Assembly (NCBI GenBank): GCA_937922675.1
Contig: CALAJN010000001.1
Coordinates: 124,001 to 188,000, forward strand
Direction of reading: 5' to 3'
Length of the DNA stretch: 64,000 nt
Source: an uncultured Granulosicoccaceae bacterium
Lineage (GTDB): Bacteria > Pseudomonadota > Gammaproteobacteria > Granulosicoccales > Granulosicoccaceae
The notes under the pieces are model-generated. The model was not told the origin of the DNA. It saw nothing but the letters and a program-made list of their open reading frames with translations, and ran no database searches. Numbering within the stretch: position 1 is the stretch's first letter; every line of letters starts with the position of its first letter. The position numbers were made by a program, and so were the translations under genes. This document shows positions 37,437-44,921 of the stretch, in pieces.

Positions 37437-38297
37437 ATGATCGACGTTCACGATCTTCACAAGCACTTCGGAGGAGCACGCGCGGTTGATGGTGCGACGC
37501 TGTCCATCGCACCCGGCTCCATCACAGGTCTCATCGGTCCCAATGGAGCTGGAAAGACAACTCTGTTCAACGTCATCGCAGGACTGATACCGCCGACCTC
37601 CGGACAGGTCAGTCTTGGGGGCGAAGACATTACAGGGCTGTCCCCTCATATCCTGTTTCAAAAGGGCTTGCTGCGTACCTTTCAGATTGCGCACGAATTC
37701 AGTTCAATGAGCGTGCGCGAGAACCTGATGATGGTGCCGGGTGGTCAGTCAGGGGAGTCCTTGTGGAACGCGTTTTTCCGGCGGAGCGATATTCGGGATC
37801 AGGAGCGCGAACTCGCTGCAAAGGCTGATGAGGTGCTCGAATTTCTGACCATTGATCATCTGGCCGACGAGAAGGCGGGCAATTTGTCCGGTGGACAAAA
37901 AAAGCTGCTCGAGCTGGGGCGTACCATGATGGTCGATGCCCGCATCGTGTTCCTCGATGAAGTCGGTGCAGGCGTCAATCGGACGCTACTCAATACCATC
38001 GGTGACGCGATCTTGAGACTGAATCAGGAGCGCGGCTACACCTTCGTGGTGATCGAACATGACATGGATTTTATCGACCGACTCTGCGATCCGGTTATTT
38101 GCATGGCCGAGGGGCGTGTGCTGGCTCAGGGAACACTCGCTGAGATAAAGGCAGACGAGCGCGTGATCGAGGCCTATCTCGGCACTGGCCTGAAGAACGC
38201 GCCGCACGTACCGGGCAGCGGCCAGGGTCTCACGGCGGGTGATCTGGGTGCCTCCCGCGGGGCACGTGGGCCCGGTTCTCCCAACGGAGACGCGTGA
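37437..38297 (+). CDS. ABC transporter ATPase, LivG type
   Basis: ATP-hydrolysing subunit of the importer, 286 residues. Walker A is GPNGAGKTT (about 33-41), the signature is LSGGQKK, and Walker B is RIVFLDEVGAG followed by VIEHDMDFI with the switch histidine. The LivG-type RTFQIAHEF stretch after the Q-loop is present. A glycine-rich tail of about 30 residues follows the domain. The next ATPase gene starts at the stop codon (TGATG). Confidence 0.92.
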   Translation: MIDVHDLHKHFGGARAVDGATLSIAPGSITGLIGPNGAGKTTLFNVIAGLIPPTSGQVSLGGEDITGLSPHILFQKGLLRTFQIAHEFSSMSVRENLMMVPGGQSGESLWNAFFRRSDIRDQERELAAKADEVLEFLTIDHLADEKAGNLSGGQKKLLELGRTMMVDARIVFLDEVGAGVNRTLLNTIGDAILRLNQERGYTFVVIEHDMDFIDRLCDPVICMAEGRVLAQGTLAEIKADERVIEAYLGTGLKNAPHVPGSGQGLTAGDLGASRGARGPGSPNGDA

Positions 38298-39007
38298 TGA
38301 GCGAGCCCTACCTGATTGGCAGGAACATGACGGGCGGCTATGGCGCTGCCGATATCTTGCACGATTGCACTATCGCGGTTGATCGTGGCGAAATTGCCGT
38401 GATCGTTGGCCCGAATGGAGCGGGCAAGTCCACCGCCATGAAAGCGGTGTTTGGCATGCTGAACCTGCGTGAGGGGTCGGTGCAGCTGGACGGTCAGGAC
38501 ATCGGGCACCTGACGCCACAACAGCGTGTGGTGGCGGGCATGGGGTTTGTGCCGCAAACAGCAAACGTGTTTACCTCCATGACGGTGCAGGAAAATCTCG
38601 AGATGGGAGCGTTTATCCGCACTGATGACATCAGCCACACGATGGAGGAGGTGTACTCGCTGTTTCCGATACTGCGCGAGAAGCGCAATCAGGCAGCGGG
38701 CGAGCTCTCGGGCGGGCAGCGCCAGCAGGTTGCGGTGGGGCGTGCGTTGATGACCCAGCCAAAGGTGCTGATGCTGGATGAACCTACCGCGGGGGTCAGC
38801 CCGATTGTGATGGATGAGCTCTTTGATCGCATTATTGATGTTGCCAGGACAGGCATTCCGATTCTGATGGTGGAGCAAAATGCAAGGCAGGCTCTTGCCA
38901 TCGCTGATCACGGCTATGTCCTTGTGCAAGGGCGAAACGCACACACGGATACCGGGCAGGCCCTGTTGGCTGATCCTGACGTCCGGAGGAGTTTTCTCGG
39001 TGGGTGA
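38297..39007 (+). CDS. ABC transporter ATPase, LivF type
   Basis: Second ATPase subunit, 236 residues. Walker A GPNGAGKST, signature LSGGQRQQ, Walker B VLMLDEPTAG and the switch histidine region MVEQNA are complete; the Q in place of the H-loop histidine (EQNA) is normal for LivF. The ATG at 38297 overlaps the previous stop by one base; a GTG one codon earlier is also possible. Its last eight bases overlap the permease gene. Confidence 0.92.
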   Translation: MSEPYLIGRNMTGGYGAADILHDCTIAVDRGEIAVIVGPNGAGKSTAMKAVFGMLNLREGSVQLDGQDIGHLTPQQRVVAGMGFVPQTANVFTSMTVQENLEMGAFIRTDDISHTMEEVYSLFPILREKRNQAAGELSGGQRQQVAVGRALMTQPKVLMLDEPTAGVSPIVMDELFDRIIDVARTGIPILMVEQNARQALAIADHGYVLVQGRNAHTDTGQALLADPDVRRSFLGG

Positions 39008-40031
39008 GGATGGCAGCAGTGTGGAGTTGCTGAATGCGTTGATCGTGTTCATGAACTTTGTCGGCATCCCGGCCATTACCTATGGCAGTCAACTTGCACT
39101 CGGTGCGTTGGGTCTGACGCTGGTCTACGGCATTCTGCGATTCTCCAACTTTGCCCACGGTGACACCATGGCCTTTGGCGCCATGGTCACCATCCTGTTC
39201 ACCTGGGGCTTGCAGGCGCTTGGTATCTCGTTTGGGCCCTTGCCAACGGCACTTCTGGCTTTGCCTTTCGGCATAGCGGTAACAGCCGTCTGGCTACTCG
39301 CTACCGACCGAGTCATCTACCGTTTTTACAGGCGTCAACGAGCGGTTCCGGTCATCTATCTCATCGCCTCGGCGGGTGTCATGTTTGTGACCAACGGGTT
39401 GGTGCGCTTCATCATCGGCCCGGGGGATCAACGCTTCAGCGATGGCGAGCGGTTCATCATTTCTGTTCGTGAGTTCAAGGCCATGACGGGCCTGCCCGAA
39501 GGCCTTGCGATCAAGACCACTCAAGGCTTGACGGTGGTCACCGCCATCGTGGTGGTTACCCTGTTGTTCTGGTTTTTGAACCGTACACGCACAGGCAAGT
39601 CCATGCGTGCCTATTCGGACAACGAGGATCTCGCCCTGTTGTCAGGCATTGATCCGGAACGCGTCGTCATGGTCACCTGGTTGATTGTGGCAGCGCTTGC
39701 CACCATCGCTGGCACGCTCTACGGTCTGGACAAGACCTTCAAGCCCTTTGTGTATTTTCAATTGTTGTTGCCGATGTTTGCAGCGGCGGTGATTGGCGGT
39801 CTCGGTAGCCCGCTGGGTGCCATTGTCGGTGGGTTTGTGATCGCTTTTGCCGAAGTCATCATTACCTACGCCTGGAAGAAGGTACTCACCTACGCCTTGC
39901 CGGAGGCCTGGGAGCCAAGCGGTCTGATGCAGTTGCTATCGACGGACTACAAGTTTGCTGTGAGCTTTGCTTTGCTGGTTGTGGTGCTGTTGTTCAAGCC
40001 GACCGGTTTGTTCAAGGGGCAGTCATTGTGA
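39000..40031 (+). CDS. ABC transporter permease, LivH type
   Basis: First membrane subunit, 343 residues with about eight helices. The GTG at 39000 was chosen because GGAGGA (38985-38990) lies nine bases upstream; a second GTG at 39021 is in frame. The LivH signatures ALGALGLTLVYGILRFSNFAHGD (key part: FSNFAHGD) and the EAA-like loop AAVIGGLGSPLGAIVGG are intact. It overlaps livF at its start and the next permease by four bases at its end. Confidence 0.92.
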   Translation: MGEDGSSVELLNALIVFMNFVGIPAITYGSQLALGALGLTLVYGILRFSNFAHGDTMAFGAMVTILFTWGLQALGISFGPLPTALLALPFGIAVTAVWLLATDRVIYRFYRRQRAVPVIYLIASAGVMFVTNGLVRFIIGPGDQRFSDGERFIISVREFKAMTGLPEGLAIKTTQGLTVVTAIVVVTLLFWFLNRTRTGKSMRAYSDNEDLALLSGIDPERVVMVTWLIVAALATIAGTLYGLDKTFKPFVYFQLLLPMFAAAVIGGLGSPLGAIVGGFVIAFAEVIITYAWKKVLTYALPEAWEPSGLMQLLSTDYKFAVSFALLVVVLLFKPTGLFKGQSL

Positions 40032-41371
40032 GTGGGGCAAGTGCCAGCAGGCGAGAGGATGGTGCAGGCGCCGGACCCCTGCGCACCACGCTCTTGTTCC
40101 TTTTCGTGTTTGGGCTGATCGTGGGTACCGGACTGGTGCAGAGTTGGAACACAGCGCTGGTCATTTTAGGCATGGGGCTGGTCAGTGCGATCATGGCGCT
40201 GGGTGTCAATCTGCAGTGGGGCTTTGCAGGCTTGTTCAACGTGGGCATCATGGGCTTTGCGGCCCTTGGTGGACTCGCTGCGGTGCTGATTGCCATGCCA
40301 CCGACTCCGGGGGCGTTTTCTGCCGGTGGCCCACGTGTGCTAATTGCCTTGTCGATCGGGGCGGCCACCGTCATCGCAGCGATTGCGGTATGGCGCAGAC
40401 TCTCGCCGGGTTGGTTACGTGGGCTTGCCGTATTCGTACTGCTGTTGATCGGTGCGGTGGTGTTTCGGCGGGTGTTTGACCCCGGTGTCGCGAGCATCGA
40501 GGCGGTGAACCCGGCAGGTACAGGTTATCTTGGGGGGCTGGGTTTGCCGGTGCTGCTTGCATGGCCTGTGGGTGGCTTGCTCGCGGCGGGCGCTGCCTGG
40601 TTGATCGGCAAGACCGCCCTCGGCTTGCGCTCTGATTATCTGGCTATAGCCACGCTCGGGATCTCGGAGATCGTTATCGCTGTGCTCAAGAACGAGGACT
40701 GGCTTTCGCGTGGTGTCAAGAACGTGGTCGGTATACCGCGGCCTGTTCCGTATGAGATTGACTTGCAGCGAGATCCTGCGTTCATCGAGCGTGCAACAGG
40801 CTACGGACTGGATCCTGTAACAGCATCGACGTTGACCGTAAAACTGCTGTACGCAGGTTTGTTTGCTGTTGTGCTGGTGATCCTGCTTGTCTTCGCGCAG
40901 CGCGCCTTGCACAGCCCCTGGGGACGTATGATGCGCGCTATCCGCGACAATGAGACAGCGGCGGCTGCGATGGGCAAGGACGTCACGGCACGTCACCTGC
41001 AGGTGTTTGTGCTCGGCTCGATGATCTGCGGTATCGCCGGAGCCATGCTCACCACCCTCGATGGTCAGCTCACGCCTGGCTCCTACCAACCGCTGCGCTT
41101 TACCTTTTTGATCTGGATCATGGTGATTGTTGGTGGCTCGGGCAATAACTTCGGTGCGGTACTGGGTGGCTTTCTGATCTGGTGGCTCTGGGTGCAGGTT
41201 GAACCAATGGGTTTGTGGCTGATGCAGTTCATCACCAGCGGCATGGCAGATGGCAGTGCGCTCAAGGCTCATCTGCTTGCCGGTGCAGCGCACATGCGCC
41301 TGATGACCATGGGGGCGATCCTGTTGGTGGTGCTCAGATTCTCGCCACGTGGCTTGTTACCTGGACGCTGA
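40028..41371 (+). CDS. ABC transporter permease, LivM type
   Basis: Second membrane subunit, 447 residues, longer than most LivM proteins because of an extra hydrophobic region near residues 105-150 that adds helices. LivM marks include LGVNLQWGFAGLFNVG, GLRSDYLAIATLGISEI and AIRDNETAAAAMGKDV. The GTG start overlaps the previous gene (GTGA). With the binding protein and two ATPases the importer is complete. No terminator was found after it. Confidence 0.92.
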   Translation: MSGASASRREDGAGAGPLRTTLLFLFVFGLIVGTGLVQSWNTALVILGMGLVSAIMALGVNLQWGFAGLFNVGIMGFAALGGLAAVLIAMPPTPGAFSAGGPRVLIALSIGAATVIAAIAVWRRLSPGWLRGLAVFVLLLIGAVVFRRVFDPGVASIEAVNPAGTGYLGGLGLPVLLAWPVGGLLAAGAAWLIGKTALGLRSDYLAIATLGISEIVIAVLKNEDWLSRGVKNVVGIPRPVPYEIDLQRDPAFIERATGYGLDPVTASTLTVKLLYAGLFAVVLVILLVFAQRALHSPWGRMMRAIRDNETAAAAMGKDVTARHLQVFVLGSMICGIAGAMLTTLDGQLTPGSYQPLRFTFLIWIMVIVGGSGNNFGAVLGGFLIWWLWVQVEPMGLWLMQFITSGMADGSALKAHLLAGAAHMRLMTMGAILLVVLRFSPRGLLPGR

Positions 41372-41428
41372 TGGAGAGCGTTGCTCAGCTCAAGGCCAAT
41401 GTCTCCATCATTCCTGTTGACACAGCTG

Positions 41429-41903
41429 TCACCAACTCTCGTGTATCGAGAATGACACACGACTCAACAGAACATGCACCTGGTCACACTGGATCGTGTT
41501 CTGCCGCCCGACAATTGCCAGTCTTGTCAGTCCTGCGTTGCCGTAGAGCGGACTGATATCTATGATGTCATTGTTGAACAGATGTACGTCTGCAAGTGTT
41601 GGCGTGTTGGCGTGTTGGCGTGTTGGCGAGCGCAGAGATATCTGAGATCTTGTTGTAGTTGAAATCGACCGACACGAGGCTCGTAAGGTTCTTGAGTGGT
41701 GAAAGATCCGAGATCTCGTTGAACGTGAATGCTACGGTCTGCAGATGTTCGAGTGCTGCCAGATCATCCATGTTGGAGACCGTATTCATGTTTGACTGCA
41801 GTTCTTGCAATTGAGGTGCGTTGGAGATCCTCTGCAAGCTGGTTGTCCTGTTATTGGCAAGAGAGCTTTTGGATTTGTTGCTCATTTTTATAGCCGCCCT
41901 CAT
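41429..41903 (-). pseudogene. Leucine-rich-repeat gene, frame broken by an octanucleotide repeat
   Basis: From the ATG at 41903 (or 41885) the frame encodes an LRR protein with 22-residue repeats, for example LAALEHLQTVAFTFNEISDL and LKNLTSLVSVDFNYNKISDI. At 41627 it enters four tandem GCCAACAC units (minus-strand view) and then stops at 41568. Another frame continues after the repeat with LADVHLFNNDIIDISPL, a typical next LRR, and stops at 41429. With two units instead of four the frames join and the repeat length is again exactly 22 residues, giving about 152 residues. Five units also restore the frame. No signal peptide is seen, so the protein could be cytoplasmic or N-terminally truncated. 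Confidence 0.75.
41596..41627 (+). repeat. Four tandem copies of GTGTTGGC
   Basis: Perfect 8-base units at 41596-41603, 41604-41611, 41612-41619 and 41620-41627. Because 8 is not a multiple of 3, each gain or loss of a unit shifts the LRR frame on the minus strand. Such repeats change length by slipped-strand mispairing. Confidence 0.97.
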
Positions 41904-42250
41904 ACAGCGTATTTTTTATACATCGATCCAGCGTGTCAGCTGACAGCCGAGCTTAGCTGAGTGTTTCGCTCTCTACACTTCGCATGGCGCGAGCCAGTGA
42001 CTCAGAAAACGCTCGCGTCTGACGCCGCCTCGGCAAGCGCTTTGATATCCGTGTTGTGGATGGCGTCATGGCGGCTACCCGGTTGGCTACGGCTGTGCTC
42101 TAGCTCACCCCGGCGAGGGCTGGAATGAGTCCCGAGGGAATGCCTCTGCGCAGAGCCTTGATGCACATTTGCGGTGCCTGGCCGGGCTGAATGGCTCTCG
42201 CTCGCGTAGGATTCAGGTACTGACTGTCTTGCCGTATAGAGGCTCCTCGT
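41904..42250. other. 347-base gap between the LRR gene and glcD
   Basis: Divergent intergenic region holding the start regions of the LRR gene (minus) and glcD (plus). No open frame with recognisable motifs and no LRR sequence continues into it. An AT-rich stretch (about 41910-41925) lies next to the LRR start. I could not fix promoters. Confidence 0.4.
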
Positions 42251-43735
42251 ATGGAAATGCCCGTACCGTCCAGTGAGATCATCGCCCGCAAAGCGGCGAT
42301 ACTCGACCGATTTCGTACCGTACTGCCTGTCGAAGCCGTGATTTCCGAGCCGGCTGAGACCCGCGCCTACGAGTGTGACGCGCTCGCGGCCTACCGCTGT
42401 CCGCCGCTTGCAGCTGTGCTGCCATCCTCCACAGCCGAAGTGGCAGCGGTGCTCAAGATCTGCCATGAGGAGGGTGTGCCCGTGGTGCCGCGCGGATCCG
42501 GTACGTCACTCTCTGGCGGTGCATTGCCGACCGCTGATGCGGTGATCCTCGGGGTATCCAAACTCGCCGATGTGCTCGAGACGGACTACGATAATCGCTA
42601 TATCAGGGTGCAGACCGGGCGCACCAATCTGTCGGTGACAGGAGCGGTTGAGCAGGACGATTTTTTCTACGCGCCAGACCCGTCCAGCCAGCTTGCCTGT
42701 GCCATCGCCGGCAATATCGCCATGAACTCCGGTGGCGCGCATTGCCTCAAGTACGGCGTCACGACAAACAATTTGCTCGGCGTCACCATGGTCACTATGC
42801 AGGGCGAGATCATCGAGCTCGGTGGTGCGCACCTTGATGCGCCAGGCTACGATTGGCTCGGTATCATCTGTGGGAGTGAAGGGCAGCTGGGGGTGGTGAC
42901 CGAGGCCACACTGCGTATCCTGCGCAAACCCGAAGGTGCCCGGCCTGTATTGATTGGCTACGACAGCAATGAGACCGCAGGCGCTTGTGTGGCAGATATC
43001 ATTCGTGCCGGCGTCTTGCCGGTGGCTATCGAGTTCATGGATCGTCCGTGTATAGAAGCCTGCGAGGCCTTTGCGCACGCAGGCTACCCGCAAGTGGAGG
43101 CCTTGTTGATCGTTGAGGTGGAGGGCAGCGAAGCCGAGATTCAGGAGCAGCTGAGCAAGATTGTGGCAATTGCGCGCAAACACAATCCGGTTGAGGTGCG
43201 CGAGAGCGCCAGTGAAGAGGAGTCGATGCTGATATGGAAGGGCCGCAAGTCCGCTTTTGGCGCGATGGGGCAGATAAATGATTACATTTGTCTTGACGGC
43301 ACCATACCGGTGTCAGAGTTGCCTTATACATTGAGGCGTATCGGTGAGCTATCCGAGGAGTATGGCCTCAAGGTCGCCAACGTGTTCCATGCGGGCGATG
43401 GCAACATGCACCCGCTGATCCTGTTCGATGCGAACAAGCCCGGTGACCTTGAAATCTGCGAAGCCCTGGGCGCCGAGATTCTCAAACTCTGTGTTGAAGT
43501 GGGAGGTTGTTTGTCAGGAGAGCATGGGGTAGGGGTGGAAAAACGCGATTTGATGACCGCCCAATACACGGATGATGATCTGGAGATTCAGATGCAAGTC
43601 AAGGATGTGTTTGATCCTGCCTGGTTGTTGAACCCTGCCAAGGTTTTTCCGCTTGCCAGTAGCGAGTCTCGCCGCAGTGGTGACGTGGAAGAGGTAAGCA
43701 CTGTCTACAACGCATCTGAAACTGCAGCCGCCTGA
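42251..43735 (+). CDS. glcD: Glycolate oxidase FAD-binding subunit GlcD
   Basis: FAD-linked subunit that oxidises glycolate to glyoxylate. 494 residues. The PCMH-type FAD domain shows VVPRGSGTSLSGGALP, the SSQLACAIAGNIAMNSGG stretch and LGIICGSEGQLGVVTEATL. The C-terminal domain has NVFHAGDGNMHPLILFD and GGCLSGEHGVGVEKRD, both typical of GlcD. The ATG at 42251 starts the usual N-terminus. glcE follows after seven bases. FAD-type relatives that oxidise D-lactate are similar, but the adjacent glcE favours glycolate oxidase. Confidence 0.93.
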   Translation: MEMPVPSSEIIARKAAILDRFRTVLPVEAVISEPAETRAYECDALAAYRCPPLAAVLPSSTAEVAAVLKICHEEGVPVVPRGSGTSLSGGALPTADAVILGVSKLADVLETDYDNRYIRVQTGRTNLSVTGAVEQDDFFYAPDPSSQLACAIAGNIAMNSGGAHCLKYGVTTNNLLGVTMVTMQGEIIELGGAHLDAPGYDWLGIICGSEGQLGVVTEATLRILRKPEGARPVLIGYDSNETAGACVADIIRAGVLPVAIEFMDRPCIEACEAFAHAGYPQVEALLIVEVEGSEAEIQEQLSKIVAIARKHNPVEVRESASEEESMLIWKGRKSAFGAMGQINDYICLDGTIPVSELPYTLRRIGELSEEYGLKVANVFHAGDGNMHPLILFDANKPGDLEICEALGAEILKLCVEVGGCLSGEHGVGVEKRDLMTAQYTDDDLEIQMQVKDVFDPAWLLNPAKVFPLASSESRRSGDVEEVSTVYNASETAAA

Positions 43736-43742
43736 AGCCAAC

Positions 43743-44921
43743 ATGCACGAACCAACAGATGAGGAGGGTCTTGCGGCCCTTGTGCGGGACGCAAGGGACT
43801 CGGAGTCGCCGCTGGCGATACAAGGAGGCAATACACGCGCAGGTTTCGGTCGTTCGGTCGACGGCACGCCCCTGACAACCAGAGCACTCACCGGCATCAC
43901 CTTGTACGAGCCGGGTGCGCTTACGCTGGTAGCCCGCGCAGGTACGCCGCTGAGCGAGATTGAATCAGCCGTTGCAGCCGAAGGCCAGATGCTGCCGTTT
44001 GAAGCGCCTCTGTGGGCCCGGATGCTGGGCAACGAGCCCGCAGCTGAATCCACTATCGGAGGTGTGGTTGCAACCAATGCCTCAGGGCCTCGCCGTATTC
44101 TGGCTGGAGCCTGTCGCGATAGTCTGATTGGTGTTCGCTTTGTAGACGGCTCAGGCCGTGTACTCAAGAACGGGGGGCGGGTGATGAAGAACGTCACTGG
44201 CTACGATCTGGTGAAGCTGATGTGCGGAAGCCACGGGACACTGGGTGTTCTCACCGAGGTGTCGCTCAAACTGCTCCCCGCACCACAGAAGACGGTAACG
44301 CTGAGTATCCACGGGCTCGATGATGTCCGGGCGGTGCGAGCGATGAGTGCGGCACTCGGCTCGCCATTCAACGTGTCTGGCGCCACGCACTCGCCACAGG
44401 GAGCGCGCGGCGATGCGATGACCTGTTTGCGTCTGGAAGGATTGTCGGCGTCGGTTGATTATCGGGCGGCGGAGCTTGCAAACACGCTCGCTGAGTTTGG
44501 AGCGCTGGAGCTTGATGAGGATGCCGCCTCTGTGCAAGAGACGTGGCGCTCGGCCCGTGATGTCAAGGTCATGGCTGCGAGTGAGGGCAGTGACGTCTGG
44601 CGTGTATCGACAAAACCGAGCGACGGACCGGCCGTTGCCGCGAAGTTCGGTAACTCCCGAACTTTCTATGACTGGGGTGGTGGGCTTGTGTGGTTGGCGG
44701 TGGAGTCTGGTACCGATGTGCGTCGTGAGCTTTCGGGCGTGGCCAGTGGCCATGCCACGCTCTTCCGAGCCTCTGACGAGACGCGCGAGGCACTGGGCGT
44801 CTTCGAGCCCGAGGTCGCGCCTCTGGCGAAGATAAGTGAGGACCTTCGCCATGAGTTTGATCCCGCCGGCGTCCTCAACCGAGCACGTATGGCGTCTGCC
44901 AGGACCGTGGCCGCAGCCTGA
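43743..44921 (+). CDS. glcE: Glycolate oxidase subunit GlcE
   Basis: Second FAD-domain subunit of glycolate oxidase, 392 residues. Visible parts are IQGGNTRAGFGR, the GTPLSEIESAVAAEGQMLPFE loop (core: EGQMLPFE), ATNASGPRRI and the GRVMKNVTGYDLVKLMCGSHG signature. The iron-sulfur subunit glcF, which usually follows, is absent: a tRNA gene comes next. The complex therefore needs a glcF elsewhere in the genome or another electron carrier. Confidence 0.92.
   Translation: MHEPTDEEGLAALVRDARDSESPLAIQGGNTRAGFGRSVDGTPLTTRALTGITLYEPGALTLVARAGTPLSEIESAVAAEGQMLPFEAPLWARMLGNEPAAESTIGGVVATNASGPRRILAGACRDSLIGVRFVDGSGRVLKNGGRVMKNVTGYDLVKLMCGSHGTLGVLTEVSLKLLPAPQKTVTLSIHGLDDVRAVRAMSAALGSPFNVSGATHSPQGARGDAMTCLRLEGLSASVDYRAAELANTLAEFGALELDEDAASVQETWRSARDVKVMAASEGSDVWRVSTKPSDGPAVAAKFGNSRTFYDWGGGLVWLAVESGTDVRRELSGVASGHATLFRASDETREALGVFEPEVAPLAKISEDLRHEFDPAGVLNRARMASARTVAAA

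Follow-up and report, generated by a model that had tools for sequence, protein, structure and literature searches.

A four-unit octamer array in an LRR gene of a Granulosicoccaceae bacterium: probably one lesion of a decaying remnant, and unlikely to be a working switch

Can an array of four eight-base units, lying inside an LRR frame, turn its gene on and off, or does it mark a gene in decay? The question is raised by one locus of the window (the whole 64,000-nucleotide stretch of DNA that was analysed), for which the original prediction proposed phase variation by slippage at the array and named, as the alternative, a decaying gene that had lost its frame by one expansion. We read the locus, with a probability of roughly 0.85, as the remnant of an LRR gene, 5′-truncated, in decay and probably acquired from outside, lodged between livM and glcD. 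The features at its centre are the following.

41596..41627, minus strand: octamer array, GCCAACAC in four perfect copies, of which two are surplus relative to the homologue G366
41568..41903, minus strand: main LRR frame, from an ATG at 41903 or 41885 to the TGA at 41570-41568, with a Pfam LRR_4 match
41429..41596, minus strand: second frame, holding the last LRR and the C-terminal cap with a TGA at its end, matching G366

The array is real and goes beyond chance. TRF places it at 41596-41628 with 4.1 copies and 100% matches, the top score among 27 rows for the window; the GCCAACAC octamer occurs four times in the window, always inside the array (41627-41596), and the 3.63 Mb genome holds a single copy of the four-unit array. 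Counting perfect octamer arrays with two units or more gives three for the window, of which this one alone reaches three units, and six for 19 sampled stretches of the own genome, 380,000 bases in all, of which none does. Slippage would be the natural cause of such an array, which is a tandem repeat inside a coding frame with a unit length not divisible by three. Elsewhere in the genome, one of the sampled stretches (L153 on C8, at 613-807 and 1417-1445) carries hexamer arrays (GGTTCG, TCTGGC and variants) that are perfect, reach up to 12 units and would be codon-phased if translated; among tandem arrays with units of 4-12 bases, none in the sampled 380 kb is longer.

The main LRR frame runs into the array and reaches its TGA 28 bases past it, the stop codon included. 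It qualifies as an LRR protein at 38.9 bits for Pfam LRR_4, with a cut-off of 27. The second frame, read from 41596, begins LADVHLFNNDIIDISPLYGN and gives in full LADVHLFNNDIIDISPLYGNAGLTRLAIVGRQNTIQCDQVHVLLSRVSFSIHESW before the stop at 41431-41429; taken alone it scores 14.6 bits, under the same cut-off. The two repeats before the junction measure 22 and 22 residues, and at two units the repeat across the junction comes to 5 + 17 = 22. What the original prediction had described thus holds, down to the different frame that encodes the next LRR and the exact 22-residue spacing at two units. Away from the breaks the LRR pattern is kept in both the main and the second frame, which suggests that decay would be recent. 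Their GC contents are 0.478 and 0.503, respectively, versus 0.585 for the window. The locus is the one LRR_4 match in its own genome, and any LRR_4 match is found in four of the 27 genus genomes, own included. A weak promoter-like site lies upstream on the minus strand (41939-41911, 9 of 12; two sites found on both strands versus 0.4 expected). No terminators were found at the locus, and an Rfam scan of 41300-42300 gave no match up to E 0.5.

To place the pieces within one protein we rely on G366, a genome of the same class whose intact LRR frame of 414 residues, itself with a Pfam LRR_4 match, is the best non-own match among 369 class genomes. The main frame aligns without gaps to G366 residues 269-351, with homology from 41864 onward, scoring 165 (500 shuffles gave at most 63). 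The second frame aligns from residue 353, scoring 87 (at most 42 in 500 shuffles; BLASTP 1e-9, 15/48 identical). Identity is ∼41% for the main frame and 31% for the second, or about 40% as an overall figure. At the junction, the main frame ends at G366 residue 351, T97 of the window stands opposite residue 352, and the second frame continues from 353. Since G366 aligns across the junction without a gap, the surplus in the array is 16 bases, or two units, which lends support to the predicted frame-shifting expansion from two units to four. The G366 codons that face the array hold no tandem repeat.

As to how the expansion arose, two GCCAACAC units would by chance have stood side by side in the codons for LANTPTL, octamer pairs not being rare (six in 380 kb). 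One or two steps of slipped-strand mispairing would then have taken the two units to four and shifted the frame. In a gene that had already been shortened, this expansion would be neutral.

Upstream of the main frame we found a further piece of the same gene, in a third frame, that was overlooked in the original prediction.

41854..41952, minus strand: third frame, N-terminal LRR-cap piece, with its match at 41946-41854, not in phase with the main LRR frame

The 33-residue peptide from 41952-41854, taken from the stop-to-stop list, is ARLSADTLDRCIKNTLYEGGYKNEQQIQKLSCQ. It matches G366 residues 197-227, directly before the G366 LRRs, with 15/31 identical and a score of 68, reached by none of 5000 shuffles (maximum 45). 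Ranked by score against G366 with all stop-free peptides of 25 residues or longer in the window (1452 in total), it comes third, and the two that precede it are the LRR frames of this very locus. Of 130 loci compared with it, only three matched, all of them covering this G366 region, so that the cap identification rests on one homologue, the same one that supplies the spacing evidence. The piece holds no ATG, GTG or TTG and is bounded by a TAA before it (41955-41953) and another after it (41853-41851), and it overlaps the start of the main frame's homologous part (41864) in another phase. Between the cap match and the main-frame match, 41 G366 residues are without counterpart. The first 195 residues of G366 do not rise above background anywhere in the window (best scores 34 in the extra segment described below, 36 in the glcD frame and 46 elsewhere). 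That N-terminal part, which is hydrophobic in three stretches (around residues 28, 134 and 162) and has no Pfam match, may be peculiar to G366 rather than ancestral.

Taken together, three collinear minus-strand pieces in three frames match the intact G366 protein as N-terminal cap, main LRRs, and last LRR with C-terminal cap. The window thus resembles G366 in aligning cap, LRRs and C-terminal cap in the same order, and differs from it in that G366 is intact, has 195 further N-terminal residues and 41 further LRR residues, and lacks a tandem repeat at the matching codons. Relative to this homologue the locus carries the inactivating lesions of a pseudogene, namely two frame breaks, a missing start and stops. 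Because there are breaks besides the array, a change in unit number alone gives no whole gene: the cap has no start, a stop stands in front of it, the frame breaks after it and, relative to G366, the N-terminal part is missing, and slippage at the array would repair none of these. Unit number therefore does not decide by itself between a whole and a cut gene. The array would be one lesion among several, and a working switch is unlikely.

No orthologue of the main LRR piece was found in the 26 other genus genomes (1/27, the own genome), the LRR genes of other genus members (G005, G011 and G015) were left unmatched by it, and in the order it was found in 2/48 genomes, the own and one with a distant 819-aa frame. 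Across the class it matched in 18/369 genomes, own included, the best of the others being G366 at 40%. Searches of genome contigs returned 54 loci at 26-48% identity, none judged an orthologue, and plasmids and phages returned 19 records each, all below 60% identity. A DNA pattern search of viral contigs gave 0 matches. Compared as DNA with 39 genomes, the whole segment matched the own genome and, over 30 bases, G030. When the LRR part of G366 served as the query, G366 was the only genome of its family to match (1/4), and 5/369 class genomes matched at E 1e-15, G366 among them and the window's own genome absent.

These results bear on the possibility that slippage at the array is a true phase switch, not of the whole gene but of a short LRR protein started at the ATG at 41903 or 41885, with the cap and N-terminal part dispensable. 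In favour of such a switch, four perfect non-triplet units sit in an LRR frame, the LRR pattern is kept in both frames, the weak promoter-like site lies upstream, and BspA-like LRR genes with a dinucleotide tract are reported to be phase-variable in passages of a published study (PMC5476646). We nevertheless consider it quite improbable: an out-of-frame cap piece without a start remains upstream, the N-terminal part is gone relative to G366, the 380 kb sampled hold no other octamer array of at least three units, and the genus, order, 39-genome DNA and viral-contig searches found no relative with a different unit number. That the array still varies in living cells, switching a short LRR protein that evolved past its old cap and N-terminal part, so that a gene fragment would carry an in-frame octamer switch, is very unlikely. 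The proposal of phase variation in the original prediction thus goes unsupported in the face of the second frame break upstream, the startless cap with its stops, and the untraced N-terminal 195 residues. Further inactivating mutations in orthologues were to have spoken against a switch, and while near orthologues were not found, such mutations are present in this copy itself. The decaying gene, offered there as the alternative, is the better reading, although the decay involves several lesions and not one expansion alone.

Two other explanations would leave the gene intact or expressed. If the frame breaks were assembly errors, two independent ones would be required, one of them amounting to exactly two repeat units, and the cap piece would still be startless with a TAA before it. 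An array of 32 bases is moreover shorter than an ordinary short read, which counts against such an error, and we regard this explanation as highly improbable. Programmed ribosomal frameshifting could in principle join the frames, as the collinear pieces contain no internal stops; however, it would have to occur twice, the cap lacks a start codon, no classical slippery site was recognised at the cap junction (by eye), and the arrangement is kept in no relative among the 26 other genus genomes. Frameshifting is therefore extremely improbable.

As for its setting, the locus has a permease gene resembling livM (PF02653) on one side and a glcD-like FAD oxidase gene (PF02913, PF01565) on the other.

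about 41380..42180, no strand: extra segment between livM and glcD, ∼0.8 kb, absent in G003, with a fairly clear left border and a weak right one

The matched livM and glcD ends are separated by 85 bases in G003, the closest relative (LivM 83%), versus 879 bases between the two genes in the window. At the strict limit of 1e-80, livM matches in 22 of the 27 genus genomes, own included, and of 23 livM loci, covered for up to 1.5 kb downstream, only those of the own genome and G003 have glcD next to livM, with L095 and L111 too short downstream for adjacency to be judged. Acquisition of the segment from outside is likelier than its loss in G003. The GC content of 41904-42180 is 0.585, the same as that of the window, and direct and inverted repeats within the segment, besides the array, were only short and imperfect, with no clear mobile-element ends.

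Several further observations concern the surroundings. An imperfect 19-base direct repeat (79%) flanks the segment at 41533-41551 and 42224-42242, its first copy lying within the second LRR frame; it may be due to chance. At the left end of the segment, a 30-base stretch (41387-41416) is 28/30 (93%) identical to G030, where the copy sits in a frame that resembles, by eye, the end of an outer-membrane barrel protein. Over 37437-44921, genes for an ABC transporter of the branched-chain amino acid type lie ahead of oxidase genes resembling glcD and glcE, with all of them on one strand.

By itself the locus matters little. It does illustrate clearly how a two-unit octamer, present by chance, expanded within LRR coding sequence, and it calls for caution, as a non-triplet repeat in a broken frame mimics a switch until the upstream frames have been checked against an intact homologue. 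Should the array turn out to vary in living cells, it would represent a rare case of an octamer switch within an LRR gene.

Among known systems, the closest in kind are the pseudogenes of the GeneTack survey (PMC3711429), passages of which ascribe singleton frame-broken genes, confirmed by BLASTp and Pfam, to sequencing errors or to pseudogene indels. Here too a lone frame-broken gene is confirmed by a homologue; unlike those cases, one of the breaks falls in a tandem repeat, which the same passages take as a sign of phase variation only for clusters of at least five genes. In Haemophilus influenzae, strain-variable octanucleotide tracts are described, in parts of a published study (PMC2651432), upstream of genes, and they comprise 1-6 units, or 12-15 in the case of the hmw genes; the table for strain Rd gives 45 octamer tracts at two units and none at three. 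The likeness lies in the eight-base units, whose number is altered there by slippage, and the difference in that our four units sit inside a broken frame, with no variation in their number seen. Lastly, passages on Candidatus Mycoplasma girerdii (PMC5476646) describe an LRR gene of the BspA-like type whose CA tract is phase-variable, so that repeat-switched LRR genes are already known. In both organisms a tandem repeat breaks an LRR gene through its length, but in Candidatus Mycoplasma girerdii the tract is a dinucleotide, length variants occur in the reads and an intact variant is present in the population.
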